Source of the DNA: Prevotella sp.
GTDB taxonomy: Bacteria > Bacteroidota > Bacteroidia > Bacteroidales > Bacteroidaceae
DNA: 64,000 nucleotides
Direction: 5' to 3'
NCBI GenBank assembly: GCA_016291495.1
Contig: JAEEXI010000006.1
Span: 119,043-183,042, forward strand
In this document: positions 10,035-42,964 of the stretch, in pieces
Position numbering within the stretch: the stretch's first letter is position 1
Layout: each line of letters opens with the position of its first letter
The notes under the pieces: generated by a model
Seen by the model: the letters and a program-made list of their open reading frames with translations, nothing else
What the model was told of the DNA's origin: nothing
Database searches by the model: none
Program-made: the position numbers and the translations under genes

Positions 10035-10036
10035 CA

Positions 10037-13000: not shown

Positions 13001-13813
13001 CAGGCTATGAAGCACATGACTGGTAGTGAGTTGTGCAACAAACTTAAGTCTGGTTCCCTGACGCATAAGATTAAATTCGTGCTGATGACAGACTCTGTCT
13101 TGACACCTGAGATGATGAAAGACATGGATATCACCTTGGCGGCAGACGACTATCTGGCCAAGCCGTTCAATGTACAAGAAGCTGTCATGCGATTCAACAA
13201 ACTGATGGGATTAGGTCCTATTGAGATGGAGCAGAATGCCATTGAGGGTCGTGAGACGCGTATGCTTGAGGGGCATAATGCAAGTATGACAACGGCGACC
13301 ATGGTTTATGACGATGATGTCATCCAGAACCAAGGCGATGCCACGCCTGCAAATGAAGAGGCTGTTGCTGAGCCAGAGACGCCGTCACAGCAGGAACCTG
13401 CAGAACAGGAGAAGAAGGATGAGCTCATGACACAGTTCTACGGTGAAGACGAGACCATCGGCAATTACTCTATGAGTAACCTGATGGACCGTCAGCTGAT
13501 GAAGAATGTAGAGCAGTATGTCCTTCAGAACATGAGCCGCGGACAGATCAGTCTGGAAGAGATGGCGACAGCGATGGGAATGGGACGTGTTCCTTTCTTC
13601 CATAAGATTCGCAGTATCACGACGAAGACGCCTGCAGAAGTTGTTCGTGAAATCCGGCTCAAACACGCCTGCGTACTCCTGACAAAGACCAATATCAACA
13701 TGAGTGAGCTTGCCATCAATATCGGCTTCTCGACTGCGGAGAACTTCATCAACATCTTCAAGGACAAGTATGGCATGACCCCACTCGAATATCGTCTTAA
13801 GAATAAAAAGTAA
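10037..13813 (+). CDS. Hybrid two-component-system-like regulator (Reg_prop propeller, Y_Y_Y, degenerate HK, REC-like, AraC HTH)
   Basis: LDIKDGLTSSQINCILKDGRGYMWFGTPAGLYRYDGY propeller repeats; TM; VVFIDDNREF REC-like; C-terminal AraC HTH. Confidence 0.85.
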   Translation: MKNEQAMKGLKKILMMLMLALPLAAAGVYLFKTLDIKDGLTSSQINCILKDGRGYMWFGTPAGLYRYDGYTFRYFQSNSQDGSSLSDSYIISMQEALDGNLWIQTSAGYCVYHPQTETFERDMKQVFGRMGIEGQPNVVFFDRHKNLWASIPNKGVVAYNMQQQLLYEFGYTDDSHGVPQGTICSIGECRDGAIIVYEDGRLVCCDIMHQQHTVWATDLIANQHLRKSASLRVYADQADNIWLYGQGTLMFYNKNTNVWDTAIGNSIGLTGVAVDHSVNGMSGDRSGNIWIGTDRMGLIRMNVDTHEMEVVQPHNGRTNLASQETIGIQSVYVDDTDLLWVGTEKSGVAFYGDNIYKFQSEFYGDVTAIAEDANGKVWYGTSDKGVVGFEGTLASQKVSCMETTEDGSLWVGSRQNGLTRIQGSSSRIFSAVRDSMKTLIDDHVNALAKDKGGNLWIATNGGLQVYNPKMNTFSSYTRENGMLNTNNITCLCYGKNNILLIGTSEGLMILNLSNREKKILTGNSTNIKTFTNNYITQVYEDSRGLIWIGTREGLNVFNVVNDSLNYITKKDGLCNNSVCGITEDRNGNMWVTTSNGISRIVVQRNRQEGTFGYGLYNYDTSDGLQSNEFNTGAILTKSDGSVQFGGLFGVNWVREVKKEDQNSLPRVMLTQLFVGEEEIMVGHDYDGNVILPQALNESSKITLKNGQSSFTIKFAAGNYNQGERLQFMYWMEGLEYDWRNGDALLHGVRFRDLGSGKYTLHVKAVSADGAVSNQERKLDITIERPWWLTWWMLSVYVLLAIVVLVIWRYGYKRAKNFMTRKRTVVDELKRQREEIKITSDELRQPMARMTTIIGNLAEKESDLEGREQLNSLHFQMLQIITRISEMQTVLENPEEKAESTAKDRMELNDQGEITLPSLSTSELTAKIQPLRLDKKTQKFNVVFIDDNREFNTFMNAHLREVYDFHVYDDIRLAIPDIEAMKADLVICKQAMKHMTGSELCNKLKSGSLTHKIKFVLMTDSVLTPEMMKDMDITLAADDYLAKPFNVQEAVMRFNKLMGLGPIEMEQNAIEGRETRMLEGHNASMTTATMVYDDDVIQNQGDATPANEEAVAEPETPSQQEPAEQEKKDELMTQFYGEDETIGNYSMSNLMDRQLMKNVEQYVLQNMSRGQISLEEMATAMGMGRVPFFHKIRSITTKTPAEVVREIRLKHACVLLTKTNINMSELAINIGFSTAENFINIFKDKYGMTPLEYRLKNKK

Positions 13814-13814
13814 G

Positions 13815-15074
13815 ATGCTGCGACTATTATTCATCGCAATATTATCTTTCCTTCTACAACCAGCGAGTTCTCAAACAAGTGACTCGCTGATTGTTCGTAC
13901 TTTGCGTTCCAAGAAAATTGTATTTTCCGACGACAACAAGGTTACACTCCTCATGTCAGGTCAGGCCAAGTTCGACGATATGTTCAACGCCATCCGTCAA
14001 GCGAAGAGCAGTGTACATCTGGAATATTTCAATTTCCGTAATGACTCTATTGCCTCCCTACTCTTCGACATCCTTCGGGAAAAGCGGAAAGAAGGTGTGG
14101 AAATCCGTGCCATGTTCGATGGTTTTGGCAATGACTCCAACAACCAGCCACTGAAGAAATATCATTTGAAAGCATTACGGGACGACAGCATTCAAATCGT
14201 AGAATACGAGCCTATCCGTTTCCCTTGGATTAATAAGATTTTCGGACGTGACCATCGGAAGATTGTGGTGATTGATGGACAAATTGCCTATACCGGAGGT
14301 ATGAATGTTGCCGACTATTATATCAAGGGAACAGAACAAGTCGGAGAATGGCGTGACATGCATTGTCGTATCGAGGGGGATGCTGTCAACGAACTGCAGA
14401 AAATCTTCTTGAGGATATGGAACCGTACAACTGGGGAGAATGTACACGGCATGAAATACTACCGGGGCGGCACCTTGACACGGTTTGAGGGGCTGAAGCC
14501 TGATACGACATCCACTGCAGGCAAGAAAATGGTGGGCATTATTAATCGGGAACCCCATTACACGCCATCCATTATGCGTGACTTCTATGTCAGCGCAATT
14601 GATCAGGCACAAGACTCCATCAAGATCATCAATCCCTACTTCACTTTGATTCCTAAAGTCACTCGTGCCCTGACCAGAGCCATCAAACGAGGCGTGAAGG
14701 TGGAAATCATGCAGTCAGCAAAGAGCGATATCCCCCTGACTCCTGACTGTGCCTATTATCAGGCTCATAAGCTGATGAAGCGAGGTGCTATTATCTGGAT
14801 GTATAAGCCAGGGTTCCATCACTCTAAAATCATGATGGTCGACGGGCGGTTCTGTACAGTGGGCAGTACCAATCTGGATGCCCGTAGCCTGAAATGCGAC
14901 TTTGAGGAAAATGCCGTGATTATAGACAAAGAGACGACCCGTGAATTAGACGAGATGTTTGCACGAGACACCAAGAAGTGTTTTCTCTTGACTCCTGAGT
15001 CGTGGAATGAGTTCCGCACTCCCTGGCAGAAGTTCCGCGGCTGGTTTGCCCATTTGCTAGCCCCATTCCTATAA
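13815..15074 (+). CDS. Phospholipase D-family protein, cardiolipin synthase-like
   Basis: Two HKD motifs: GRDHRKIVVIDGQIAYTGG and FHHSKIMMVDGRFCTVGSTNLD. Confidence 0.9.
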   Translation: MLRLLFIAILSFLLQPASSQTSDSLIVRTLRSKKIVFSDDNKVTLLMSGQAKFDDMFNAIRQAKSSVHLEYFNFRNDSIASLLFDILREKRKEGVEIRAMFDGFGNDSNNQPLKKYHLKALRDDSIQIVEYEPIRFPWINKIFGRDHRKIVVIDGQIAYTGGMNVADYYIKGTEQVGEWRDMHCRIEGDAVNELQKIFLRIWNRTTGENVHGMKYYRGGTLTRFEGLKPDTTSTAGKKMVGIINREPHYTPSIMRDFYVSAIDQAQDSIKIINPYFTLIPKVTRALTRAIKRGVKVEIMQSAKSDIPLTPDCAYYQAHKLMKRGAIIWMYKPGFHHSKIMMVDGRFCTVGSTNLDARSLKCDFEENAVIIDKETTRELDEMFARDTKKCFLLTPESWNEFRTPWQKFRGWFAHLLAPFL

Positions 15075-15078
15075 CATC

Positions 15079-16197
15079 ATGCAGCGCAATACCGTCATCT
15101 CCATCTGCAAAGCACTTGCCATTATCCTGATGGTTATTGGTCATGCTGATTGCCCTGATGTTGTCTGTTCCTTCCTTTATGAGTTCCACATGCCCGTCTT
15201 CTTCATTACGGCAGGCTATTTCTTCTCCCTGCGGTATCTTGATGACGAGGCCACTTTTGTCAAGAAACGGTTCAAGGGCCTTTACGTCCCTTTTCTCAAA
15301 TGGGCAGTATTCTTCCTGATTATCCATAATTGGATGTTCGATCTTGGCATTCTCAACGAGCAATACGGCAACTGGACTGGAGGCGTTACCCACCCCTACT
15401 CCTGGCATCAGATGCAGCAGAACCTGTGGAATATGGTGACGGCAATGGGCGGCTATGACCAATTCCTCTGTGGTGCATTCTGGTTTTTCCGTGGGTTGTT
15501 GGTAGCAAGTATTACGTACCTTATTATATATAAAGGCGCTGACCACCTGGTCGGAAAATCGAAGAAGCTGTCTGCTTACCGCGACACGATTACTCCTATT
15601 GCTGTCTGTGTGTTGATGCTCCTGCTGGCAGCATGGAAGACATCGGAAGGGCTCCGTATCATCACCCTCATCCAAGGAGGCTATCGGGAAATCATGGGTA
15701 CTTTCTTCTTCGGATGTGGTTTCCTGTTTCATAAGTGGGAGCGTCATTACAGAGTATCATGGTGGATCACTTTGGTCTTTGCCGTCATTGTCTTCCTCTT
15801 CTCCAAATACCTAACGGCTAACATGAACTGGCGCTCGTCCTTCATTCAGTTCATTTCTTTACCAGTCCCTGCCATCTGCGGTTTCCTAATGACCTACAAC
15901 ATAGCTTATTACTTGAATCGCAAGGAAGGAGCCATAAAACGCTTCTTGGTATTTTGCGGTGATAACACCCTTCCCGTCTTTGTATTCCATATCATCAGCT
16001 ATAAAGTTGTCAGCCTGATAAAGATATGGTATTACGACATGGACTTTGCCCAGATTGGATGCCACATGGTTATCCACGATCACGCCAAGGAAGACTGGTT
16101 TTGGGTACTCTACGCCATTGTTGGAATGGGTATTCCGTTGGGTTGGACCTGGTGTTATCAGAAGATCAAGAAAAGACTGCAGCCTGCATCAGTCTGA
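15079..16197 (+). CDS. Acyltransferase 3 family membrane protein
   Basis: N-terminal ISICKALAIILMVIGHADCPDVVCSFLYEFHMPVFFITAGYFF; multiple TMs. Confidence 0.85.
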   Translation: MQRNTVISICKALAIILMVIGHADCPDVVCSFLYEFHMPVFFITAGYFFSLRYLDDEATFVKKRFKGLYVPFLKWAVFFLIIHNWMFDLGILNEQYGNWTGGVTHPYSWHQMQQNLWNMVTAMGGYDQFLCGAFWFFRGLLVASITYLIIYKGADHLVGKSKKLSAYRDTITPIAVCVLMLLLAAWKTSEGLRIITLIQGGYREIMGTFFFGCGFLFHKWERHYRVSWWITLVFAVIVFLFSKYLTANMNWRSSFIQFISLPVPAICGFLMTYNIAYYLNRKEGAIKRFLVFCGDNTLPVFVFHIISYKVVSLIKIWYYDMDFAQIGCHMVIHDHAKEDWFWVLYAIVGMGIPLGWTWCYQKIKKRLQPASV

Positions 16198-18304
16198 CCT
16201 GTATCTCACTAACTGCGTATTCCGCTATCAATTGGGAGTCAAAACTGAAGAATGCCTCTTCAGGACGAACATTCCCTACTGCTTTCTTAAAACAGTGAAC
16301 GGCTTCGTCAATCCTGCCAGAGAACCAACAACAATAACCATAATTCTCCCAGTCTTCTCGAAGCACCTGATCACCTGCCGTTAGCTGCTTGTATAGCTTA
16401 TCAGCCTGTTCCAATTGGTGACTGCACAGATGTGTCCATGCAAGTACCCGATTCACATGATTGTCCTCAGGATGATTATAATTCAGCCGATACAGTATCT
16501 TCAAAGCCTCTTCATAGTCTTTCAGATTGACAAGACAGATCGACTTGTTCAACAAGTAGCTGGTCTTATCGGGATTCAGCATCAACAGTTCATCATATGC
16601 CTCTGCAGACTCTTCATACAATCCTGCGTTGAACATCTCTCGGGCATAGCCCTGAAGTGCCTTCTGGTTTCCAGGTTCCAGCTCCAATGCCTTAGCGAAC
16701 ATTCCCGACCAAATATAGTATTGTATGGAATGGTGGTCATCACTATAGGAATCCAGCAACCGCTTGGCATTCTTCTCCAGTTTCTGACGTTTCAACAAAC
16801 GGACGATCTCATCCTTATAAGGCTCCAAAGGAGAACCTTTGAACAGCCACAGACTGAAGAACTCACAGGAACCTAATTCGTCGTGTCCTGTGTCAAAAGG
16901 ATTCTGGAACTCATTCCGACCAGAATACAAACGATAGAAACGGTATAAGTCCATCAGATAGGCCCGACGGATAAAGGCAGGTGTCTGCAGCTCTTCCTCT
17001 GGAAGATCGCCCATCGTAGCCTCTCCACGCTCCAGCATCTTACGCATTCCATCTGGTATTCGCTCTATTACCTGTTGGAATGCAATGATAAATGAATATT
17101 TGTCACTGTTACAGAAAGGCCCCTGACGCATCATCTTTTCCAGAAACTTATTCCCTTCTGCCCTACGTACAAAATGGATGATGTCCGGATGCTGCATATA
17201 GAAAGGGACGAACCAGTTGGGGATATCGTAGAAGAAGGGGAACCGTTTCATCTGGGAGAAACCGCCGAAATAAATATCCGAGCCCTGCTTCTGCATGTTC
17301 ATCATACGCCCGAAGGTTTCCTCCAGCTTCTCCATACGCTGTTCTGAAGCCTCTGGATGCAGGATGTCTTCCATAGGATCGTCCTCCCGTTCCTCAATGC
17401 CAAAGCGGTTGAACTGGAGATTGTTGTTCTTCAGGATATCCGGCATGATTTCCTGCTGGATAGTATGGGTATCCTTTTCGGCATTCAGACAATACACCAA
17501 TTGCATCTGTAACTCCGTCAACTCCTCGCGAACCTTTTCTGATGAGAGCAGCGACAACACCAATTCCTCCTGCTCCGGATAAATCTTACGCATCTCTTCC
17601 TTCAGCGACAACACCCAGCCTACCAACGCCCGCTGTCTTACAGGTTCATCCTGAGAGCGGCGATATACATTGACAAGTGTACGGAACTTTGCCATATCAA
17701 ACTGGTTCAGCAACGACAAAGTCACTGACGACACCAGGAGTTGCTGGTCATTATTGTCGATGGTCGGCGATATCAGTATCTCCTCAAAGTCGTGCCCTAC
17801 TCCCTCCGTCCACATACGGGAGGTCAGGACATACGAAAACAGATTGTTCATCTGCGACTGATGTGCTTTATAGAGGCCCTCTGCCTTCTCCTGTCTCGTG
17901 TGCTCAGGCTCCAGTTCCAACATGGCGACATCACTCACAAAAGCTTCCATTTCCTGACGGATCTCCGACAGTGACCAGTCCTGACGCTCCAAGCGTACAC
18001 GATTATAGACGCCTGCCAATATCGGATAGGAGCGCATCCGGTGATAGGAGGCAATATTGGCATAAAGTACATAGACTCGTTGCAACAGATACTGGTAGAG
18101 TTGTTCCAGCTGCGGGTCGTTCACCCCACGACGCCAATAGTCAGACATCAGTTCATATTCCGTCTTGATGCCACTCAAACGCTCCTGCGTCTGTTGCTGA
18201 GGATAGGCAGCCAGATAGGTCTCCATCTCCGCAATGGCAAGCCCCACATTGCCTTGATGCAATTCGGCTGCCACTCTCTGTAATTGAAGTTCCGTACCTG
18301 TCAT
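16166..18304 (-). CDS. TPR-repeat protein of unknown function
   Basis: 712 aa; C-terminal TPRs (AEAYDELLMLNPDKTSYLLNKSICLVNLKDYEEALKILYRL). Confidence 0.75.
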   Translation of the reverse strand: MTGTELQLQRVAAELHQGNVGLAIAEMETYLAAYPQQQTQERLSGIKTEYELMSDYWRRGVNDPQLEQLYQYLLQRVYVLYANIASYHRMRSYPILAGVYNRVRLERQDWSLSEIRQEMEAFVSDVAMLELEPEHTRQEKAEGLYKAHQSQMNNLFSYVLTSRMWTEGVGHDFEEILISPTIDNNDQQLLVSSVTLSLLNQFDMAKFRTLVNVYRRSQDEPVRQRALVGWVLSLKEEMRKIYPEQEELVLSLLSSEKVREELTELQMQLVYCLNAEKDTHTIQQEIMPDILKNNNLQFNRFGIEEREDDPMEDILHPEASEQRMEKLEETFGRMMNMQKQGSDIYFGGFSQMKRFPFFYDIPNWFVPFYMQHPDIIHFVRRAEGNKFLEKMMRQGPFCNSDKYSFIIAFQQVIERIPDGMRKMLERGEATMGDLPEEELQTPAFIRRAYLMDLYRFYRLYSGRNEFQNPFDTGHDELGSCEFFSLWLFKGSPLEPYKDEIVRLLKRQKLEKNAKRLLDSYSDDHHSIQYYIWSGMFAKALELEPGNQKALQGYAREMFNAGLYEESAEAYDELLMLNPDKTSYLLNKSICLVNLKDYEEALKILYRLNYNHPEDNHVNRVLAWTHLCSHQLEQADKLYKQLTAGDQVLREDWENYGYCCWFSGRIDEAVHCFKKAVGNVRPEEAFFSFDSQLIAEYAVSEIQVRLMQAAVFS

Positions 18305-18307
18305 CTG

Positions 18308-19228
18308 CTATTTCTTTTGAAGCCATTTCTGTGCCAAATCCACATCTTTCTGGCGGGGGCCAACGGCATGTTGGTACTTAATGTCTTTTGGCAAGGAGTC
18401 AACAACAGCAGACTGTACGCCACAATACTTGACAATCAAGTCACGATAGTGCCTGATACCTTTCTTATTGATAGAGTCACATGCTGCATTATAGGCTTTC
18501 ACGAAAAGGTCCAGCTGCTTATGGCGCTCAGGTCGCCGCATTTCCTTCTCACGGAAGGCAATCACCCCCATCTGCATATCCAGTTTCCGAGTGTCCAGCA
18601 CCACAGGATGCCTTGCCATACGGGCCATTGTAGCCTGAGGCTCTGAAAAGAACATCGCATCCATTTCATTATTCTGCAACATCTGCATACGCACATTCAG
18701 GTCGTTGATCTGCACTCGGAACAGATGCTCATCCCTTAGTTTCACGGAATCAACAATGAGGTCACTGAGCATATCCGTCACTGAGAAACGGGTCATTGCC
18801 ACCATCTTGTCGTCCAGTTGCTTCAACTGGCGTATACGTGAGTTATGGTTGGTAATCAACTGCCAGTAACTGTTCGTCGCAGCTACATAGCGCAGTTGAA
18901 TGCCTCGTTTCTCAATACGTGCAGCCCTGACGAGGTCTGTCACACTACCTTCCACCCGTTGACGCTCCAAGGCGGTATCACAGTCTATATGTGCCATAAA
19001 GTGCTTCAGGCGCACGCCACCATTCAGTGTGTCAAACAATTGGTGATATGCTGCCACATACATCGGCAGGCAGTCAAGCGTCGGCATCACGGCAATCTTC
19101 AGCGCTGCAGAGTCTTTACGCAAAGCCTCCAGACGTTGTTTCCTCGTCTGTCGCTTCGTTTCCTCATAGGACTGTCCGCACGCTACCAATAGCACCAGAC
19201 AGGCCATCAAATAAAATGTTCTCTTCAT
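18308..19228 (-). CDS. Periplasmic solute-binding lipoprotein (SsuA/NMT1-like)
   Basis: Start MKRTFYLMACLVLLVACGQS (lipobox); 4 bp upstream of the TPR gene. Confidence 0.7.
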   Translation of the reverse strand: MKRTFYLMACLVLLVACGQSYEETKRQTRKQRLEALRKDSAALKIAVMPTLDCLPMYVAAYHQLFDTLNGGVRLKHFMAHIDCDTALERQRVEGSVTDLVRAARIEKRGIQLRYVAATNSYWQLITNHNSRIRQLKQLDDKMVAMTRFSVTDMLSDLIVDSVKLRDEHLFRVQINDLNVRMQMLQNNEMDAMFFSEPQATMARMARHPVVLDTRKLDMQMGVIAFREKEMRRPERHKQLDLFVKAYNAACDSINKKGIRHYRDLIVKYCGVQSAVVDSLPKDIKYQHAVGPRQKDVDLAQKWLQKK

Positions 19229-26798: not shown

Positions 26799-28865
26799 AT
26801 GTATAAGGTATCAGTCGTTACGCCGTTCCATAATGTGGACATGGGTATGTTTCAGAAGTGTGCAGACTCCATGCGCAGCCAGTCTATCGGTTTCGAGAAT
26901 ATCGAGTGGATCATTGTAGTTCACAACTGTGAGCCGCACTACCTTCCACTACTTACGGAGATGTTCAAAGACGACAAGAACGTTGTCATCAAGGAGTTGA
27001 ACGACGGCATTCGCTCACCAGGTATGCCACGCAACCACGGAATGCTCTTTGTAACGGGTCCCTACGTTGGCTTCCTCGACGCTGACGACAGTTACACACC
27101 GAACTGTCTGGAGGTAGTTTGCCACGAAATGGCAGAGACGAAGTCGCAGGTGGTTACCTTCCGCCGCGAATATGAGTTAGAGACGGAGAGTCTCCATCCG
27201 CATACGGAGACGGTGATGTGGAACCAAACCGAGTGGCGCATTGTCATGGACCGCGACAACTATCAGTATGACAAAATGTTCTCAGGTCTCTGGCCCTTCA
27301 CGACGTCACGGTTGTTCGACGTAGCATTCCTGCGTGAACATGACATCAAGTATTCCAAAGAGGTTCTCTGGGTCGAAGATGTCTGGTATACTGCTGCCTG
27401 CCTACTACAGGCCGACCGCGTGTGCTACCTGCCGCAGTTCATCGGCTACCACTACTTCATCAATGGCGGTTCCATCATCCAGAACAGCAAGAAGTCGGTT
27501 GATGACCTCTACGAGTGTTTTAAGTCTGCTGGCATCATCCTTGACTATCTCACGTCGCAGGGTGTTGACGCCAATGATACTGCTCAAACGCTATTCCGTT
27601 TGTTGACAAGATATTACCTAGCATCCGACCTAAGCGTTGAGGATCGGCGCGCTATGAGCGAGATGGCACGTCCCTACCTGGAGAAGTTCCGCCGAATGGA
27701 ACCATCGAAGATTCACTCCCCAGAAGAGTGCTATATGTCATACCACCTGTCACGCGAGGTACTTACCAACCCTGAAAACCCAACGGACAGCCCTGCACTG
27801 AAGGAGGCTGTCAACGGATGGCTGGTGATGATGGAAATCCTGCGTAATAACATCACTACCGACTACGGCCGCCGCTACCACTTCGACCAGATAGAAACAC
27901 TGGCAGATTATCAGCGGCTGATGCCCATGACCGACTACGAGAACTACCAGCGGCTCATTGACCTGCAAGCCAACATTGGCGAGAACGAGATTCTGACCAT
28001 AGCACCTACGCGTCACTACCTCGTCAATTCCAAAGGGCAGCGTGTGCCCTGTACTGAGAGCCATCTGCGTCCTTACATGGAAGCCTTTGCCACGACGATG
28101 AAAGGGCATCATAACTTACTGGCTGCACTGGTGGAACCTCGCAGTAAGCAGACCAATGACGGCTGCTCTGTGGAGTCGCTGGAGAGTGTGATGGTCAAAG
28201 TGTATATGTGGCACTACCATTATGCACGCGGCAAGTGCCGTGCCGAATTCTCCATGCCCGATGACTTGTTCTTTAAGACTGAGCCAGAGAATGAGATGCG
28301 CACGATATGCCGCTATGCCCTCTTGGACAGTGATGTAGACCAGATAGTAGCCCTCAACACACAACGGGTAGCCGATCTGTTCGACTACATTACCACGCAC
28401 CGCGACGAACTGATAGCAGAACTCCGTGAGGCTGATTCCCAGCGTGCCGACGAGGTAGAAAAAGCCTTCGCATCAGGACAACCCTTGGCAAAGACACTGT
28501 GGCCCAAATTGGAACGTATCGTGGCCTTCGGGGCTGGTGAATACTACGAGGCTACTGCCCACATGAAGCAGTTTACTGGCGAGATTCCTCACAACAACGG
28601 CTACTACTACACTGAGGAGACCATCTATGGTCGTGCCGTGGCTGATGACAGCGATCTCTTCGAGACCTTTCCTTCGGGCAGTTTCCACGAGTATCTGCCA
28701 CAGGAAGAACACAATGCGGCAACCATCTTTTCTACTAACGCGAAATCGGGAGAACCCTACCAGTTAGTTGTCACCAACAGCGCAGGGCTCTATCGTTACG
28801 TTACCGACCACATCGTCTGCATCCAGGAAACTCAGATGGACAAAGTGTTATTCACCATTTATTAA
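26799..28865 (+). CDS. GT2 glycosyltransferase fused to GH3 (auxin-responsive/JAR1)-like acyl-adenylase domain
   Basis: N-term VSVVTPFHNVDMGMFQKCADSMRSQSIGFENIEWIIV...GFLDADDSYTP; C-term NNITTDYGRRYHFDQIETLADYQRLMPMTDYENYQRLID...EYLPQEEHNA...YQLVVTNSAGLYRYVTDHIVCI. Confidence 0.75.
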   Translation: MYKVSVVTPFHNVDMGMFQKCADSMRSQSIGFENIEWIIVVHNCEPHYLPLLTEMFKDDKNVVIKELNDGIRSPGMPRNHGMLFVTGPYVGFLDADDSYTPNCLEVVCHEMAETKSQVVTFRREYELETESLHPHTETVMWNQTEWRIVMDRDNYQYDKMFSGLWPFTTSRLFDVAFLREHDIKYSKEVLWVEDVWYTAACLLQADRVCYLPQFIGYHYFINGGSIIQNSKKSVDDLYECFKSAGIILDYLTSQGVDANDTAQTLFRLLTRYYLASDLSVEDRRAMSEMARPYLEKFRRMEPSKIHSPEECYMSYHLSREVLTNPENPTDSPALKEAVNGWLVMMEILRNNITTDYGRRYHFDQIETLADYQRLMPMTDYENYQRLIDLQANIGENEILTIAPTRHYLVNSKGQRVPCTESHLRPYMEAFATTMKGHHNLLAALVEPRSKQTNDGCSVESLESVMVKVYMWHYHYARGKCRAEFSMPDDLFFKTEPENEMRTICRYALLDSDVDQIVALNTQRVADLFDYITTHRDELIAELREADSQRADEVEKAFASGQPLAKTLWPKLERIVAFGAGEYYEATAHMKQFTGEIPHNNGYYYTEETIYGRAVADDSDLFETFPSGSFHEYLPQEEHNAATIFSTNAKSGEPYQLVVTNSAGLYRYVTDHIVCIQETQMDKVLFTIY

Positions 28866-32425: not shown

Positions 32426-35400
32426 ATGAATATTGGCAGTAATGACACCCAGACGATAGTATCGCTGTTCCGCCAACAGGCAAAGGAAACACCTGATAAT
32501 ATCGCAGTAGTTTACAAAGACAAGCAATACACCTATGCCGAAGTAGACAATATCAGTGACCACATCGCAGGCTATGTTGCATCAAGGGGTCTCGGCTTAG
32601 AGGATGTGGTGAGCATATTGATTCCCCGTTGCGAGTGGATGACCATTGCGTCGCTCGGCGTACTTAAGGCTGGTTGTGCCTATCAGCCCCTTGACCCAAC
32701 CTATCCTAAAGAGCGTCTGAACTTCATGATGAAAGATGCCAGCGCGAAGCTGCTTATTGCTGATGAGGCACTTCGCCCTATCGTCGACGAATACCAAGAT
32801 GAGGTATTGTTGACAAAGGACATTGTCGAGTGTGCTACGATTCCGTCGCAGCAGTTCTCCCCCACCCCCGACAGTCTGTTTATCCTATTATATACCAGCG
32901 GTTCAACGGGTGTACCGAAAGGTTGCATGCTGACACATAAGAACCTGGTGACGTTCTGCAATTGGTATCGTTGTTACTACGACCTGCAGCCCGGTGACCA
33001 TGTGGCGGCTTATGCCAGCTATGGTTTCGATGCGTGCATGATGGATATGTATCCCGCCCTGACCACAGGTGCTACCGTATATATCATTCCAGAAGAAATC
33101 CGTTTGGATTTGATAGCGCTGAACGAATACTTCGAGGCTAATCATATCACCCTTGCCTTTATGACCACACAGGTGGGCTGTCAGTTTGCTGAAATGGACA
33201 ACCACTCACTGCGTCATCTCTCTGTGGGTGGAGAAAGCTTCATTCCAGTGGAACCGCCCACCAACTTTCAGCTACATAACTGCTACGGTCCGACGGAGTG
33301 TACCATCTTCACGACCATCTATCCCATCCGACAATACGAGAAGAATGCACCTATTGGCAAACCACTCGATTCGTTCCGACTCTACGTCGTCGACCAGAAT
33401 GGTCAGCAGGTGAAGGACGGTGCGGAGGGCGAGCTGTGGATTAGTGGTCCACAAGTGTCCCGTGGCTATTTGAATCGTCCTGAGCAAAACGCCAAGACGT
33501 TCACGCCGAACCCGTTCTGCCAGGAGTCTCCATACGACCGTGTCTACCATACTGGCGACATTGTGCGCTGGCTGCCAGACGGTAATCTACAGTTCATCGG
33601 CCGCCGCGACGGTCAGGTGAAGATTCGCGGTTTCCGTATCGAAATGCGTGAGGTGGAAGCCGTCATCAAAGAATTTCCTGGTATCAAAGACGTCACCATA
33701 CAGGCTTTCGATGAGGACGGTGGTGGTAAGTTCATCGCCGCCTACGTCGTCAGCGATGAGCAGATAGACATCGAGGCATTAAACAACTTTATTCTGGAGC
33801 GAAAGCCCCCTTATATGGTGCCTGCTGCAACCATGCAAATTGACCGCATCCCACTGAACCAGAACCAAAAAGTAGACAAGCGCGCCCTGCCGAAGCCTGT
33901 TAAGTCTGTTGCACAGCAACTTACGGGGCGGGAGCCCGAGAACGACCTCCAGCGCGAGTTGGTGGAAATGATTGGAAAGATCATCCACAACACCGAGTTC
34001 GGCATTGACACGCCCCTTCGCTATGTCGGTCTAACATCCATCTCGGCCATACGCCTCGCTGCCACCGTCTACAAAAAGTACGGTATAGCATTGGACTCGA
34101 AGAGCCTAGTGAAGGACGCAACAGTGCTGATGATAGAAGAAACTATATTAAGCGAAAAGGGAAAAGTAAATAGTGAAAAAGATGCTGTCGCCGCTGCATC
34201 AGAAGAGGTGACGGTAGCGCCGCTCTCTTTCTCACAGACAGGTGTCTATGTCGATTGCGTCAACAATCCTGACGACACGCAGTATAACATCCCTTGGGTC
34301 TTAGGTTTCCCCGTTGACACGGATACCGAGCAGTTGCGCAAGGCTGTACAGACGGTCCTCACGGCCCACAAACACATCTTCGTACGTTTCGAGGCCGACG
34401 GCGAAGACATTGTGCAACGCTACACGCCTACGGACATCGACATCCCCATACTCAGTATGACGGATAGTGAGTTGACCGAATATAAGAAAGTTTTCGTACG
34501 CCCATTCGACTTAAGCAATGACACACTCTGTCGCATGGAGATTGCCAAGACAGAGAGCGGTGTATTTCTATTGTTAGACATTCACCATTTGGTGTTCGAC
34601 GGCAGTTCCCTCGACCTCTTCATCGTCCAACTCTGCGATGTATTAGAAGGCAGAAATGTGGAGGAAGAAACCTACACCCATTTGAATCATGCTACCGACG
34701 AACAGAATGAATCTACAGAAGAACATAAAGCCTACTATGACAATTTGCTGGGTGCGTGTGAAGGTGCTACACAGTTACCCTCCGACCTGACAAACCCACA
34801 CGAGTGTGAGCAATCATCAGAGTCGTACCACCCAATTGATCTTGAAGCGGTGGAGCAGTTCTGTCGCGAACATCCCGTGACACCGGCACATCTGACGCTG
34901 GCAGCTACTCTATTGGTATTTGCCCGCTTCACAGGTAATGACGAGCTATACATCAGTACCGTCTCCAGCGGTCGCTCTAACATTCGCATCCAGAACACCT
35001 TCGGTATGTTCGTTAACACCCTGCCATTAGCTGCAAAGGTGGGCGACGGCACCGTCATGGACTTCATCAAAGACGTTAGTGAACACTTCGACGAGGCCAT
35101 GCGCCACGAAAAGTATCCCTTCGCTCGCATTGCCACAGATTACGGCTATACGCCAGAACTGGCCTTTGCCTATCAGTTAGGTATGGTGACGCGTTACATG
35201 GAGAACGGCCATGAAGTGACCACGGAAAGCCTAGAGGCTGGTGCTCCGAAGTTCCGCTTGATAGTGCGTCTGGAGATTCACAACGGACAGCCCAGCATTG
35301 TCACAGAATATGACAATGGACAATATAGTGAATCTCTGGTGAACCAAATGAACGAGTCCATTGCCAATGTGCTAAAGACTTTCATCAACCAGCCAGAGGC

Positions 35401-38400
35401 TCAACTTTCCGATATTTCGCTACTTTCCATTGAACAGACGCAGTTGCTGGATTCGTTCAACGATACCGACGATCCATACGATGACACACAGACCATCGTC
35501 TCGCTGTTCCGTCGTCAGGCCAAGGCCACACCCGACAAGGTGGCCGTGGTATTCAAAGACAAACGCTACACTTATGCCGAAGTGGATGACATCAGCGACC
35601 GCATAGCAGGATCTATTGCCAGCAAGGGCTTGGGCTTGGAAGATGTGGTGGCCATCTTGATTCCTCGTTGCGAATGGATGGCCATTGCCTCATTGGGCGT
35701 GCTGAAGGCCGGTTGTGCCTTCCAACCACTCGACCCGAGCTATCCGAAAGAACGTCTGAACTTCATGATGCAAGACACCCAGGCTCGTCTATTAATTGCA
35801 GAGGAAAAATTGTTGCCCATCATGGATGAATACAAGGGTGACGTGCTCTTAACCCGCGACATCGTCGAGTGTGCTGCGATTCCGTCGCAACTATTAACGG
35901 AACCCAAGCCCGACAGCCTCTTTACCTTAATTTATACCAGCGGTTCGACAGGTATTCCCAAGGGGGGCATGTCTGAACACAGACATTGGGTGGCGTTCTG
36001 TCACATGCATCAGAAGAATTTCAATATCACAGCCCAGAGTCGTGTGGCGGCATACGCCAGCTTCGGCTTCGACGCCTCCCCCATGGAGATTTTCGGTGCG
36101 CTGACAATCGGTGCCGAACTATATATCATCCCTGAAGAACTGCGCTTGGACCTCGTGGCACTCAACGACTATTTCGAGAAGAACGGCATCATGTTTTCGT
36201 TCATGACGACACAAGTGGCTTATCAGTTTGCAACGGGAATAGAGAATCACACGCTCCAGTATCTGATGACCGGTGGAGAGAAACTCGCATCGCTGGTTCC
36301 TCCTAAAGGTTACACACTTACCAACGGGTATGGACCTTCCGAGACCATCTGCTATGTGACGACCTACCGCGTCAAGGAACACATGAAGAATATTCCTATC
36401 GGTGTCGCCATGCCTAATTGTAAACTATATGTTGTGGACAAGTACGGTCATCGACTGCCAGCAGGAGCCTGCGGTGAACTATGGATAGCAGGTCCGCAAG
36501 TGGCACGCGGTTATTTGAATCGTCCAGAGAAGACGGAAGAAGTTTTTATCCCCAATCCGTTTATCAATGATTCCCGCTCGGCCGAAGGAGGCTTGCAAAA
36601 CAAGAAATACGCTCGTGTCTATAAATCAGGCGATATAGTTCGCTATCTGTCCGATGGCAATATCCAGTTCATAGGACGTAGTGACGGGCAGGTGAAGATT
36701 CGCGGTTTCCGTATCGAACTGAAAGAAGTGGAAGCTGTTATCCGCGAATTCCCCGGCATCAAGGATGTCACTGTCCAGGCTTTCGATATGGAAGGAGAAG
36801 GTGGCGGCAAGTTCATCGCGGCATACATCGTGAGTGATGCCCCCATCGACATTGAGGCACTGAACAACTTTATCCTCGAGGAGAAACCGCCATACATGGT
36901 GCCTGCGGTCACGATGCAAATTGATGCCATCCCGTTGAACCAAAACCAAAAGGTAGATAAGCGCGCCCTGCCGAAACCTGTACTGTCTGTTACAACAGAG
37001 TCGCAACAAGCAGTAAACGTTCCGCTGAACGTACTGGAGCAGGAACTGCACGACACGATTGCCAAAATTGTGAACAACGAGGACTTCGGTATCACCACGG
37101 TGTTGGGCTATGCCGGTCTGACATCTATCTCCGCCATCAAACTGGCTGTACAGGTCAACAAGCGCTACAGTGTACAACTCGACGCCAAGTCGTTAGCAAA
37201 AACGGCAACTCTCCAAAGCATTGAGAACGAAATACTGAAGGGATTCATGGTTCAAGGTGCAGGGTTAACGGTTAAGGAGGGAAAAAAGCAAGAAACATTA
37301 ACCAATAACCATGAACCAAACTCTGCTCCACTCTCTTACGCCCAGTTGGGTGTCTATTACGAATGTATGAAGCATCCGCTGAACATTACCTATAACATTC
37401 CGTTTGCCATCATGCTTCCGCAGAGTATAGAAGTCGACAAGGTAGAACAGGCGCTGATACAGATTATCAAGGCGCATCCAGCCTTCAACATCCATTTCGA
37501 GACGCAGGGCGATGATGTCGTTCAGGTATACGATCCTGACCTTGAGGCGCTGGTAACCCGTAGTGAGATGACGGAAGAGGAACTTGTCACCTATAAACAA
37601 CAGTTCGTATTACCCTTCCACTTGGAACGCGGACCGCTCTACCGCATAGAAATCGTGCAGACAGAGAAGTATGTGGTTATCCTCATGGATATCCACCACC
37701 TCATCTCTGATGGTGCCTCGACGGATTTGATCCTTCGTCAGTTGTGTGGTATTCTCGATGGGGAAAACATCGAGCGTGAACAATTAGGTTATCTGCAGTT
37801 TGCGCAGGAGCAGCGTCAGGCAGAGAGTGGCAACAAGTACCAAGAGGCCAAGGCCTATTTCGCCGAAGTGATGAAAGAGTGTGAGGGCTGCACGGAGATT
37901 ACCGACGATTTCACGCCCAGTGTGCCGCACGGCCATATCACTCACGTAGCGCATCCCTTTGACTTTGACAAGGTGGAACAGTTCTGCAAGCAGTTGAATG
38001 TCACACCAGCCAGTCTGATGCTCGCCGTGGCTTTCTACACGCTGTCACGCTACACCAACAGTCGTCATGTCTATATCTCCACCATCAGCAACGGGCGCGC
38101 TGACCTGCGCCTGTCCGACACGACAGGGATGTTTGTCAATACCCTGCCACTTGCGGGACACATTACCGAACAGACTGTAGAGGAATTCATTCGCCGCACG
38201 AGTGAGGATTTCGAGCAGACCATGCGCCACGAGCAGTATCCCTTTGCCCGCATTGCCGCCGACTTCGACTTCTCCGCCAATACCACCTACAGCTATCAGA
38301 TGGGGGTCATCGAGGAATATACCATCAATGGCGAGAAGATAGAGACAATGCCTATGGATCTGGATGTGCCGAAGCAGAAACTCGACATCATCATTGCTGA

Positions 38401-41400
38401 GCAGAACGGACTGCCTGTCGTCTGTCTGGAATACGACGATGCCTTCTATAGCGAGAAGACCATGAAGAGCTTGGCAGAATCGTTGGTCAGCGTGCTCAAC
38501 CACTTCATGGAAGCACCTAAAGGCAGCTTGCTCAAGGTGTCAATGCTCAGTGAGGAGCAGGAACGTCTGATCGATTCGTTCCGCATGGCTGGCACGGCAG
38601 AAGTTCCCACCCGTCTGTTCCATCAAGCCGTTGAGGCCAATGCCGAACAGAAACCCGACGCCAAAGCGCTTGTGGCTTGCGACGGTACCTTTACCTTCAG
38701 CCAGCTGAATGGTGAGATGAACCGTATTGCCAATGCACTCATCGCTCATGGTGTGAAGCGTGGCGACCGCGTGGCAATGTTGTTGCCTCGTACTAGTCGT
38801 CTCATCTTCACCATGTTCGGCATCATGAAGGCGGGTGCAGCATATATCCCTTGCGACCCACACTATCCTGCAGACCGCATCAAGCTAATTCTCGAAGACA
38901 GCGAGGCTGCTTATATCGTTACCGACAACGAGAATCTGGCAAATCTGAAGGCGCAAGCTGGTGAGGGAAGTCTCAAAGTCCTGGAGAAAGCCTTGAACGT
39001 AGAAGAACTACTGCAATGCAGTAATACGACGAACCCTGCCATTCCTCAGGAAGGCAGCGACCTCGCGTACATTATTTATACATCAGGTTCTACGGGTCGT
39101 CCCAAGGGTGTGATGCTCCACCACAAGGGTATCTGCAATGAACTCTTTACCCATCCGCTCAACTTCCGCAACTGGACGGTGATGCAGGAGGTAAAGTGTA
39201 TTCTTGGATTGGCCACAATCTCCTTCGATGCCTCTGTCGAGGAAATCGGTATTCCGCTGTACAACGGTCTCACCCTGGCATTGGCCAGCGACAAGATAGC
39301 CAACGACCCCATCCGTCTGGCGGAGTTCATGGTAGAAAACAATGTAGGCATGTTCCAGGGAACACCTTCACGTTTGATGCAACTCTACGAGTCGGACATC
39401 TTCCGCAAGGCGCTAGCAGGCTGCCATATCATCGAATTAGGCGGCGAGAAATTCTCCGACAGCCAGCTGCGTGAACTGCAAAAGACGATGGTAAATGCCG
39501 ATAGTTCTACGAAGGTTCATATCTTCAACAGCTTCGGTCCTACTGAGACTACGGTGGAAAGCAACAGCCACGAAGTAACGCACGATGACCATGTGACCAT
39601 CGGTCGTCCGCTGGTCAACGTGACCGAATACATCGTTGATGCCGATATGAACCGTGTTCCTGTGGGTGTCGTCGGCGAACTGCTGATTGGTGGTGCACAG
39701 GTGGGTTTGGGCTATAACAACCTACCTGACAAGACCCGCGAGGCCTTCATCCCCAATCCATTTGTAACAGACGATGCTATCGACAAGACGCTATACCGGT
39801 CTGGTGATTATGCTCGCTGGGACGAACACGGCTATGTCACTATCCTCGGACGCACCGACAATCAGGTGAAATTACGTGGTCTGCGCATCGAACTGGGTGA
39901 GATAGAGAGCGTGATAACCCAACAGGAAGGTATTGGACAGGTGGTTGTCATGATTCGCAAAATCAACGGTAAGGAACATCTCTGCGCCTACTTTACTGCC
40001 AATCATCCCGTGGACATTGACGAGCTAAAGGTAGAAATCGGCAAGAGTCTGACACAATACATGGTGCCTACTGCTTACCTGCAACTCGACAAGATGCCGA
40101 CCACGCCCAGTGGTAAGACTGACATGAAGGCACTACCAGAACCCACGCTTTCCGTCACGACAGAATATGTGGCACCCGTGGGAGAACTGGAGACACAACT
40201 CTGCGATATCTTCGCCAATATCCTGCAAGTAGAACGTGTTGGAGCCACCGATGATTTCTTCGAGTTAGGCGGCACATCGCTCGTCGTCACGCGCTTGATT
40301 ATCGATGTCGATAAGATTGGGCATCATCTGGTCTATGGTGACGTCTTTGACCACCCCACCCCCCGACAGATTGCTGCTCTGCTAACTGGTACGCAGGTAG
40401 CTGAAGATGTCAGCTTAGAGTCGGAGGTGAAGGACTTCGACTATACCGCCATCGATAAAGTATTGACTGATGGCACGCTTGACGCCTTCCGAGAGGGTAC
40501 GCCACTCACATTAGGTCATGTGTTCCTGACTGGTGCCACAGGTTATTTGGGAATTCACCTGCTTCATGAACTCATCAGTTCCGATGCCAAGACGATTACC
40601 TGTCTGGTACGCGCCAAGAGCCAAGCAGAAGCACAGAAACGCCTACAGACGCTCCTGTACTACTATTTCACCTCTGCCTATCGTGATCTTTTTGAGAGCG
40701 GTCGAATCAGAGTGGTCAACGGTGATGTCACCGACGACCTCTGTGCCGCATTGGGTTCGAAGGGTTTTGACACGGTCTATAACTGTGCCGCCATCGTGAA
40801 ACACTTCTCCAAGGATAACGACATCGAGCGGGTGAACGTAGATGGTACGCAACGCTGTGTGGATTTCTGTCTGAAGACGGGTGCCAAACTCATTCAGATT
40901 TCCACTGTCAGTGTAGGTGGATTCCTAACGCATGGTGAGTCGGCAGACAAGGCGGTTTTGGACGAGCATCGCCTCTTTATGAATCAGTATCTGGGCAACC
41001 AATATACCCTTTCGAAGTTCCTGTCAGAGCGAATCGTGCTGGATGCCATAGCCTCGAAGGGGCTCGTGGGTAAGGTGATGCGCGTCGGCAACCTGGCTGC
41101 TCGCAGTACCGACGGTGAGTTCCAAGTGAACTTTCGTACCAACAGTTTTGCCGGCATGATGCGTGCCTACAGCCTGTTGGGTTGCTGCCCATACGAGGAT
41201 TTCACCAACCCTGTCGAGTTCTCGCCCATCAACGAGGTAGCCCGTGCCATTTGTCTACTATCGACCACGCCGCGCGAGTGTTGTATGTTCCATCCTTATA
41301 ACAACCACAGTGTGTTCCTCGGTGACGTGCTGGGTGAACTGGACGCTGTAGGAACGCCTGTCCGTATGGTGGAACAGGACGATTTCCTGCAGACATTGAA

Positions 41401-41617
41401 TCGGGTAAAGGCCGACCCCTCGAAGGCAGAGCGCTTACAGAGTCTAGTGGCATACGCCGACGTGACTCACGGTCACGATGCGCTCAGCGTGCAAGAGACG
41501 AACGGCTATACCATGGAGGTACTTTACCGGCTGGGGTTCTTCTGGTCACCGACATCTTGGGACTATGTCGATCGGTTCTTCCAGGTAATTGCGGGATTCG
41601 GCTTCTTCGATAATTGA
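32426..41617 (+). CDS. Trimodular NRPS, A-T-C-A-T-C-A-T-R with terminal thioester reductase
   Basis: Three YTSGSTG A-domains; PCPs GLTSISAI, GLTSISAI, FELGGTSL; two C domains HHLVFDG and HHLISDG; R domain VFLTGATGYLG...NQYTLSK. Confidence 0.93.
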   Translation: MNIGSNDTQTIVSLFRQQAKETPDNIAVVYKDKQYTYAEVDNISDHIAGYVASRGLGLEDVVSILIPRCEWMTIASLGVLKAGCAYQPLDPTYPKERLNFMMKDASAKLLIADEALRPIVDEYQDEVLLTKDIVECATIPSQQFSPTPDSLFILLYTSGSTGVPKGCMLTHKNLVTFCNWYRCYYDLQPGDHVAAYASYGFDACMMDMYPALTTGATVYIIPEEIRLDLIALNEYFEANHITLAFMTTQVGCQFAEMDNHSLRHLSVGGESFIPVEPPTNFQLHNCYGPTECTIFTTIYPIRQYEKNAPIGKPLDSFRLYVVDQNGQQVKDGAEGELWISGPQVSRGYLNRPEQNAKTFTPNPFCQESPYDRVYHTGDIVRWLPDGNLQFIGRRDGQVKIRGFRIEMREVEAVIKEFPGIKDVTIQAFDEDGGGKFIAAYVVSDEQIDIEALNNFILERKPPYMVPAATMQIDRIPLNQNQKVDKRALPKPVKSVAQQLTGREPENDLQRELVEMIGKIIHNTEFGIDTPLRYVGLTSISAIRLAATVYKKYGIALDSKSLVKDATVLMIEETILSEKGKVNSEKDAVAAASEEVTVAPLSFSQTGVYVDCVNNPDDTQYNIPWVLGFPVDTDTEQLRKAVQTVLTAHKHIFVRFEADGEDIVQRYTPTDIDIPILSMTDSELTEYKKVFVRPFDLSNDTLCRMEIAKTESGVFLLLDIHHLVFDGSSLDLFIVQLCDVLEGRNVEEETYTHLNHATDEQNESTEEHKAYYDNLLGACEGATQLPSDLTNPHECEQSSESYHPIDLEAVEQFCREHPVTPAHLTLAATLLVFARFTGNDELYISTVSSGRSNIRIQNTFGMFVNTLPLAAKVGDGTVMDFIKDVSEHFDEAMRHEKYPFARIATDYGYTPELAFAYQLGMVTRYMENGHEVTTESLEAGAPKFRLIVRLEIHNGQPSIVTEYDNGQYSESLVNQMNESIANVLKTFINQPEAQLSDISLLSIEQTQLLDSFNDTDDPYDDTQTIVSLFRRQAKATPDKVAVVFKDKRYTYAEVDDISDRIAGSIASKGLGLEDVVAILIPRCEWMAIASLGVLKAGCAFQPLDPSYPKERLNFMMQDTQARLLIAEEKLLPIMDEYKGDVLLTRDIVECAAIPSQLLTEPKPDSLFTLIYTSGSTGIPKGGMSEHRHWVAFCHMHQKNFNITAQSRVAAYASFGFDASPMEIFGALTIGAELYIIPEELRLDLVALNDYFEKNGIMFSFMTTQVAYQFATGIENHTLQYLMTGGEKLASLVPPKGYTLTNGYGPSETICYVTTYRVKEHMKNIPIGVAMPNCKLYVVDKYGHRLPAGACGELWIAGPQVARGYLNRPEKTEEVFIPNPFINDSRSAEGGLQNKKYARVYKSGDIVRYLSDGNIQFIGRSDGQVKIRGFRIELKEVEAVIREFPGIKDVTVQAFDMEGEGGGKFIAAYIVSDAPIDIEALNNFILEEKPPYMVPAVTMQIDAIPLNQNQKVDKRALPKPVLSVTTESQQAVNVPLNVLEQELHDTIAKIVNNEDFGITTVLGYAGLTSISAIKLAVQVNKRYSVQLDAKSLAKTATLQSIENEILKGFMVQGAGLTVKEGKKQETLTNNHEPNSAPLSYAQLGVYYECMKHPLNITYNIPFAIMLPQSIEVDKVEQALIQIIKAHPAFNIHFETQGDDVVQVYDPDLEALVTRSEMTEEELVTYKQQFVLPFHLERGPLYRIEIVQTEKYVVILMDIHHLISDGASTDLILRQLCGILDGENIEREQLGYLQFAQEQRQAESGNKYQEAKAYFAEVMKECEGCTEITDDFTPSVPHGHITHVAHPFDFDKVEQFCKQLNVTPASLMLAVAFYTLSRYTNSRHVYISTISNGRADLRLSDTTGMFVNTLPLAGHITEQTVEEFIRRTSEDFEQTMRHEQYPFARIAADFDFSANTTYSYQMGVIEEYTINGEKIETMPMDLDVPKQKLDIIIAEQNGLPVVCLEYDDAFYSEKTMKSLAESLVSVLNHFMEAPKGSLLKVSMLSEEQERLIDSFRMAGTAEVPTRLFHQAVEANAEQKPDAKALVACDGTFTFSQLNGEMNRIANALIAHGVKRGDRVAMLLPRTSRLIFTMFGIMKAGAAYIPCDPHYPADRIKLILEDSEAAYIVTDNENLANLKAQAGEGSLKVLEKALNVEELLQCSNTTNPAIPQEGSDLAYIIYTSGSTGRPKGVMLHHKGICNELFTHPLNFRNWTVMQEVKCILGLATISFDASVEEIGIPLYNGLTLALASDKIANDPIRLAEFMVENNVGMFQGTPSRLMQLYESDIFRKALAGCHIIELGGEKFSDSQLRELQKTMVNADSSTKVHIFNSFGPTETTVESNSHEVTHDDHVTIGRPLVNVTEYIVDADMNRVPVGVVGELLIGGAQVGLGYNNLPDKTREAFIPNPFVTDDAIDKTLYRSGDYARWDEHGYVTILGRTDNQVKLRGLRIELGEIESVITQQEGIGQVVVMIRKINGKEHLCAYFTANHPVDIDELKVEIGKSLTQYMVPTAYLQLDKMPTTPSGKTDMKALPEPTLSVTTEYVAPVGELETQLCDIFANILQVERVGATDDFFELGGTSLVVTRLIIDVDKIGHHLVYGDVFDHPTPRQIAALLTGTQVAEDVSLESEVKDFDYTAIDKVLTDGTLDAFREGTPLTLGHVFLTGATGYLGIHLLHELISSDAKTITCLVRAKSQAEAQKRLQTLLYYYFTSAYRDLFESGRIRVVNGDVTDDLCAALGSKGFDTVYNCAAIVKHFSKDNDIERVNVDGTQRCVDFCLKTGAKLIQISTVSVGGFLTHGESADKAVLDEHRLFMNQYLGNQYTLSKFLSERIVLDAIASKGLVGKVMRVGNLAARSTDGEFQVNFRTNSFAGMMRAYSLLGCCPYEDFTNPVEFSPINEVARAICLLSTTPRECCMFHPYNNHSVFLGDVLGELDAVGTPVRMVEQDDFLQTLNRVKADPSKAERLQSLVAYADVTHGHDALSVQETNGYTMEVLYRLGFFWSPTSWDYVDRFFQVIAGFGFFDN
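34154..34181 (+). repeat. Heptanucleotide array in NRPS PCP1-C1 linker
   Basis: gaaaagg gaaaagt aaatagt gaaaaag. Confidence 0.65.
37249..37317. repeat. Inverted pair of heptanucleotide arrays in NRPS PCP2-C2 linker
   Basis: ggttcaa ggtgcag ggttaac ggttaag ... attaacc aataacc atgaacc. Confidence 0.75.
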
Positions 41618-41632
41618 CAATTCACAATTGAT

Positions 41633-42964
41633 ATGACAAACAAACCGTCTCTTTCGACCCAGTTCTGGCGTTACCTGTGGGCATTCATCTTAGTGGCTCT
41701 CTCGGGTTGCATGGGTGAGGTGGTCGACGGCATCATCGTCGGAAACCTAATCAGTACCGACGGCGTCAGCGCCATCAATCTGACAAAGCCTTTGATGCAA
41801 CTGATGTTCACCTTGAGCCTGCTTCTCGCAGCAGGCGCTGGGATGTTGGTGGCTTACGCACTGGGACAGAAGGATATAGCCCAAGCACGTACGCTCTATA
41901 CCCAGTCCATGCTCGGCAGTATCGTAGCTGGTGCTGTATTCACCGTCATCGGTATTGTGGCACCCGAAACGGTGACGCGCATCCTATGCGATGAACCCGA
42001 ACTGTTTGACATGACCAACGACTATAGTCGTGTGATGCTGCAAGGTGCTCCTGTCTTTATGCTCTCTTGGGGACTTGCCACGATGGTCGGTGTTGACGGT
42101 AGTCCTCGACTCGTTTCCGTATCTGTCGTCATCATCAACGTAGTCAATCTAGTGCTCGACATATTCTTCATTAAGGTCATGGGATGGGGCATCACCAGTT
42201 CTTCTGCCGCTTCCGTGATAGGCAATCTCATGGGGGTTCTCGTGCTGCTTTGGCATTTCCGCACGCCCAATGCACAACTGCGGTTGGTATCTCCCAGCAA
42301 GGGCCTCGGACTTTGGGGACAGATCATCAGTCAGGGTGCGCCGCTCGCCATTGCCTCTGTGTGTCTGACGCTGATGCTGTATGCAACCAACAGCATTGTC
42401 CTCTCGAAACTTGGTACGACGGGTATCTTTGTCTTCGCAGTTGGTATGAACCTACTGACGGTCTATAACCTTTTCCTGTCGGGTACAGTCGAGACGCTAC
42501 AGTCGCTCGGTGCCGTACAGGTAGGCGAGGGGAACGACAAAGGACTGCAACTGGTGCTTAACAAGTCTTTCTTCTTTATCACCGTCAGCATGGTTGTCAC
42601 CTGCATCTACACGTGGCTGTTCCCTGGAACCATCGCGGAGTTGTTTGGCACAGAGGATACTGCCGTCATTGCGGAATGTAACTATGCCCTACGCATCTTT
42701 GCCGTCAGTTTCATCCCCTTCTGTTACATCTACACGCTGATGATAGTCTACAAACTGTATGGTTACGACCGTATGGCGCTGTTTATATCCTTTGCACTAT
42801 CATTGACGGTCATCCCCTTCATGTGGCTTATCTCGCGCATTGCTACCGAATGGCTATGGTATAGTTTCTTGATTGCTTACATTGTCGAGTTAGTAATGAT
42901 TGGCAGCCTGCACCGGTTGATGCATGTTCGATTCAGGCTAACGCCAAACACAGACTGTCAATAA
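41633..42964 (+). CDS. MATE-family efflux transporter
   Basis: 443 aa, 12-TM pattern, MatE-like GEVVDGIIVGNLIS...LMQLMFTLSLLLAAGAGMLVAYALGQKD; starts 16 bp after the NRPS stop. Confidence 0.9.
   Translation: MTNKPSLSTQFWRYLWAFILVALSGCMGEVVDGIIVGNLISTDGVSAINLTKPLMQLMFTLSLLLAAGAGMLVAYALGQKDIAQARTLYTQSMLGSIVAGAVFTVIGIVAPETVTRILCDEPELFDMTNDYSRVMLQGAPVFMLSWGLATMVGVDGSPRLVSVSVVIINVVNLVLDIFFIKVMGWGITSSSAASVIGNLMGVLVLLWHFRTPNAQLRLVSPSKGLGLWGQIISQGAPLAIASVCLTLMLYATNSIVLSKLGTTGIFVFAVGMNLLTVYNLFLSGTVETLQSLGAVQVGEGNDKGLQLVLNKSFFFITVSMVVTCIYTWLFPGTIAELFGTEDTAVIAECNYALRIFAVSFIPFCYIYTLMIVYKLYGYDRMALFISFALSLTVIPFMWLISRIATEWLWYSFLIAYIVELVMIGSLHRLMHVRFRLTPNTDCQ

Follow-up and report, generated by a model that had tools for sequence, protein, structure and literature searches.

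What becomes of an ATP-dependent amide ligase domain when it is joined to a glycosyltransferase is the question raised by a gene in the window analyzed here, a stretch of 64,000 nucleotides from Prevotella sp. (GCA_016291495.1, JAEEXI010000006.1:119,043-183,042, forward strand; window numbering is used for all coordinates). A single open reading frame combines a GT2 glycosyltransferase with a domain of the GH3 family, a pairing for which no description was found in the open-access PMC literature.

Gene structure and distribution

The gene and its domains are laid out as follows:

25995..26774, + strand: SpoU-type RNA methyltransferase gene, 24 bp upstream of the fusion gene; a neighbor, probably unrelated in function
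26799..28865, + strand: GT2-GH3 fusion gene, 688 aa, ORF from ATG to stop, with 13 intact homologues
26805..27617, + strand: GT-A glycosyltransferase region, residues 3-273 (the extent of the match to TarS; PF00535, phmmer, Foldseek)
27825..28544, + strand: GH3 N-terminal domain, residues 343-582 (PF03321; structure model)
28668..28826, + strand: GH3 central domain GH3_M, residues 624-676 (PF23571)

All three Pfam matches lie above the curated cut-offs: Glycos_transf_2 (PF00535) at residues 5-147 (54.4 bits, E 1.9e-14), the GH3 N-terminal domain (78.9 bits, E 5.1e-22) and GH3_M (35.7 bits, E 9.2e-9). The fusion is confirmed as real, and a frameshift or assembly artefact is ruled out by the identical single ORF, domain order and end at 13 distinct intact loci.

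The survey across Bacteroidota called for in the original prediction, extended here to family, order and phylum samples, located the intact fusion only in the genus of the window. The full-length gene is present in 11 of 398 sampled genomes of this genus, and two further intact loci (L034 and L038) from another collection bring the known total to 13. A profile of the full fusion detected no other copy in samples of 201 family, 393 order and 198 phylum genomes, the family sample also missing other members of the genus that hold the fusion. Close homologues come from Prevotella-type genomes, several of which are isolates or assemblies from the rumen. One carrier locus, L036, is from the culturable Prevotella sp. 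tf2-5, and the copy of G181 (locus L083) is only 44% identical to that of the window. A phage or plasmid origin was considered and rejected: the viral contigs yielded no relative, and on the plasmid side no record spans 80% of the query, the matches listed containing one half only. In several genomes the identity of HemW to its window counterpart is much like that of the fusion, a pattern that fits largely vertical descent with relocation, from which L083 (fusion 44%, HemW 60%) and G231 (fusion 74%, HemW 61%) depart.

About ten further species carry only relics or fragments of the gene, with deletions and frameshifts. These relics, identified at loci L035, L040/L059, L041, L042/L062, L054, L039/L056, L057, L058, L060 and L061, frequently present internal deletions and lie mostly directly behind a UDP-glucuronate decarboxylase (UXS) gene. 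Since many species have lost the gene, its role is dispensable, a point that counts against the reading favored below.

Comparison with known glycosyltransferases and GH3 enzymes

The residues on which the comparison of both halves turns are the following:

27078..27089, + strand: DxD metal/nucleotide-sugar motif, D94-A/G-D96-D97
27375..27380, + strand: E193-D194, with D194 as the putative catalytic base
28017..28049, + strand: remnant of GH3 motif I, YLVNSKGQRVP, core deleted (alignment)
28587..28622, + strand: remnant of GH3 motif II, PHNNGYYYTEET, with Glu E607 kept (alignment)
28785..28817, + strand: remnant of GH3 motif III, GLYRYVTDHIV, with H671 at the position of the catalytic Asp (alignment)

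A GT-A glycosyltransferase had been predicted in the first half of the protein, and both the PF00535 match and the Foldseek fold match to its nearest solved structures, TarS, TarP and RmlT, bear this out. The DxD and base residues align with those of TarS and RmlT in phmmer comparisons, D194 falls on the residue altered in the RmlT D198A variant, and D94, D96, D97, E193 and D194 are invariant in the alignment of all 13 intact copies. On the strength of this conservation and of the likeness to TarS, TarP and RmlT, the first half is likely to be active as a glycosyltransferase. These wall teichoic acid glycosyltransferases share with the fusion the GT-A fold, the DxD motif and the base residue, but identity is low (about 17-20%), they have no GH3 domain, and their acceptors are Gram-positive teichoic acids, which are not expected in Prevotella.

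For the second half, a GH3-like domain had been proposed that a structure prediction could refute; that prediction was run and returned the GH3 fold. Because an AlphaFold model of the whole protein built from fusion rows only was poor in this half, the GH3 half was modeled alone with GH3 rows, yielding a pLDDT of 89.1 for a model that is steered by the GH3 homologues among its 37 GH3-related alignment rows. The model matches plant GH3s with a Foldseek E of 4e-23 and superposes with a VIA-align Z of 35 over 349 residues onto residues 21-415 of GH3.12. Plant GH3s are also retrieved by the whole-protein model derived from fusion sequences alone (Foldseek E 4e-13), and GH3.12 is within reach of a sequence profile built from the fusions. 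The window protein presents both the large-domain fold and the Pfam match of the GH3 family. With the plant enzymes GH3.12/PBS3, GH3.5 and JAR1 it has in common the fold of the large N-terminal and central domains (about 350 residues) and the motif II Glu, at about 18-20% identity; it differs from them in the absence of the motif I core, the motif III Asp and the C-terminal domain, and in the addition of the GT2 domain. EhpF-type phenazine biosynthesis proteins (PDB 3hgu, 3hgv, 3l2k) also match structurally with a single adenylate-fold large domain of ~350 residues, although more weakly (Z 13) and with no glycosyltransferase. Judging from its chain length, we take EhpF to lack a GH3-type C-terminal domain as well.

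Comparison of the 13 intact fusions with 17 full-length bacterial GH3s reveals a consistent set of losses. Motif I ([S/T]SGTTxxxxK), the ATP loop that had been described as replaced, carries a deletion of 5-6 residues relative to the canonical form in all 13 fusions, and at motif III a His is found in every fusion versus an Asp in every full-length enzyme. At motif II ([S/A]E) the Glu (E607) is kept throughout, with changes in the adjoining residues. The mobile C-terminal domain of GH3 enzymes is missing from all 13 proteins, which stop where that domain should start, and a recent C-terminal truncation is ruled out by an end point identical in all of them. The predicted departure from canonical catalysis thus holds and goes further, the motif III substitution and the absent C-terminal domain, which had been missed, adding to the loss of the ATP loop. 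The bacterial GH3 lyso-ornithine lipid synthetase OlsH has, like the fusion, a bacterial GH3 fold; unlike the fusion it has all three motifs, and its motif I Ser is essential for activity (PMC12493201). Against the OlsH profile NF052613, with a cut-off of 620 bits, the window protein scores 27.1 bits. Given these three losses and the essential role of the motif I Ser in OlsH, adenylation by the GH3 module of the fusion is unlikely.

The genome of the window also encodes a canonical GH3 of 497 aa (L001) and a standalone GH3 of 396 aa (L002). The latter belongs to a conserved truncated family carried by many genomes within the genus and by no other genus of the order sample. The family has in common with the fusion the deletion in motif I and the point, ahead of the C-terminal domain, at which the protein stops; it differs in having no glycosyltransferase, in its low identity to the fusion (about 20%) and in an Ile or Lys, not His, at the motif III position. 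Its nearest full-length relative, with which trees join it, is a GH3 of 582 aa from another member of the genus (L064:79-1827) in which the motifs and the C-terminal domain are intact. The comparison of shared versus parallel loss with the fusion gives a p-AU of 0.139, at which neither course is rejected. In the window's genome, the standalone gene (L002:1210-2397; G000:C28 about 61715-62899) lies just downstream of a gene for an LdcA-like peptidase.

A putative binding module

Both halves of the fusion are under purifying selection and neither is drifting. Among 12 intact orthologues (L083 left out), median Nei-Gojobori dN/dS is 0.088 for the glycosyltransferase half and 0.109 for the GH3 half, values that are rough because synonymous sites are near saturation. 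On the basis of the conserved and lost residues described above, the protein is probably an active glycosyltransferase that carries a non-adenylating, GH3-derived binding module. The GT-A half would bind a nucleotide sugar through the DxD motif and transfer the sugar with D194 acting as the base, as the conserved residues and the likeness to TarS, TarP and RmlT suggest. The GH3 half retains the large domain in which the acyl pocket of the plant enzymes lies, and having neither ATP loop I nor the motif III Asp nor the mobile C-terminal domain it would form no acyl-adenylates. Its most likely contribution would be to bind or position, on behalf of the transferase, either an acceptor that bears an acyl or aminoacyl group or a ligand with a regulatory role. 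The acyl or adenylate ligand suggested originally would be a candidate. It seems, then, that an amide-forming enzyme domain has been reused as a putative binding module.

Less probably, the GH3 half binds no acyl ligand at all and is either an inert structural or oligomerization domain or a regulator of the transferase. Every adenylation motif is damaged, and in RmlT and TarS non-catalytic C-terminal regions stand beside the same type of GT-A domain. Such a role has to be weighed against the retention of the full large domain, the closeness of its dN/dS to that of the glycosyltransferase half and the invariance of several residues of the pocket region, including H671 and E607.

Gene neighborhood and candidate ligands

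Downstream of the fusion gene, which converges with an EF-G2 gene, lie HemW and then a nonribosomal peptide synthetase (NRPS) and an exporter:

32426..41617, + strand: neighboring NRPS gene, 3063 aa, comprising three AMP-binding domains, two condensation domains and a terminal reductase
41633..42964, + strand: neighboring MATE-type exporter gene, after the NRPS

The distance between fusion and NRPS, originally given as 3.6 kb, is 3.56 kb to the start of the NRPS ORF. This proximity admits a role in peptide tailoring, with the GH3 module recognizing a product of the NRPS, or an (amino)acyl group held on a carrier, for the other half to glycosylate, a role that we consider rather unlikely. The 13 intact loci represent 10 gene contexts by our grouping of neighbors, and in three of these an NRPS gene lies next to or near the fusion: it follows directly on the same strand at L077, after 72 bp, and at L083, after 33 bp, and lies 3.6 kb away both in the window and in the syntenic locus L080. 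The chance of three such contexts in 10 would be about 2e-4 if 1.25% of the genome were that near an NRPS, a figure that is itself a rough estimate. Condensation domains are likewise commoner in genomes with an intact fusion (10 of 11) than in the others (149 of 387; Fisher p 6e-4), in a test that was chosen after the fact and ignores kinship. On the other hand, two housekeeping genes intervene in the window, the stretches read in the remaining seven contexts, some of them short contigs, contain no NRPS, and in G191, a 99% complete genome with the fusion, no condensation domain was found. The link between fusion and NRPS is at most suggestive. At L083, where the NRPS gene is followed by another A-T protein, the region 7988-18470 forms a cluster made up of an acyltransferase, the fusion, two AMP-binding/carrier proteins (~800 aa) that have an additional region at the C-terminus, a GT2, and a MATE exporter fused to a HATPase domain.

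The second recurrent neighbor is the UXS gene, a match to UDP-glucuronate decarboxylase 1 (E 1e-118), which about half of all fusion loci follow. At 11 species loci the fusion gene, intact or relic, lies within about 100 bp behind it, and the fusion-adjacent UXS sequences form a group of their own, with 96% identity within the group and 85% to the UXS of other fusion genomes. An equally doubtful reading would make the fusion a surface-glycan or glycolipid transferase, for which UXS would supply UDP-xylose as a UDP-pentose donor and whose GH3 module would bind the lipid acceptor. Eight of the 11 UXS-adjacent loci, however, are relics, and UXS is located elsewhere in the other fusion genomes that have it. 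Moreover, at E 1e-90 no UXS match was found in three incomplete assemblies that hold the fusion (G181, G412 and G394), so that UDP-xylose as an obligatory donor is not supported. No fusion relic was found behind stand-alone UXS genes. As neither the NRPS nor the UXS neighbor is constant, neither fixes the donor or the acceptor.

The GH3-half residues that are invariant among the fusions include H598 and H437-H438 besides E607 and H671 at the catalytic Asp position. Around these residues the module might have acquired a novel chemistry or ligand site; the fusion would then be a two-site enzyme, coupling a sugar and an acyl or aminoacyl acceptor with no need of ATP, a reading that we regard as quite improbable. 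Least credible is a gene in decay that has no current function, as the species with fragments only might suggest, for this is contradicted in the intact copies by a dN/dS of about 0.1 over long divergence and by the retention of the glycosyltransferase motifs and of a common end point.

An active glycosyltransferase with a GH3-derived, probably non-adenylating binding module therefore remains the reading that we favor. In it, a domain of ATP-dependent amide ligases has lost its catalytic parts and become attached to a glycosyltransferase while selection maintains it, in a genus that also holds a standalone family with the same losses. The fusion offers a well-delimited case in which to look for the ligands of GH3 modules that do not adenylate, and it may be a lead to acyl or peptidyl products that rumen Prevotella glycosylate.
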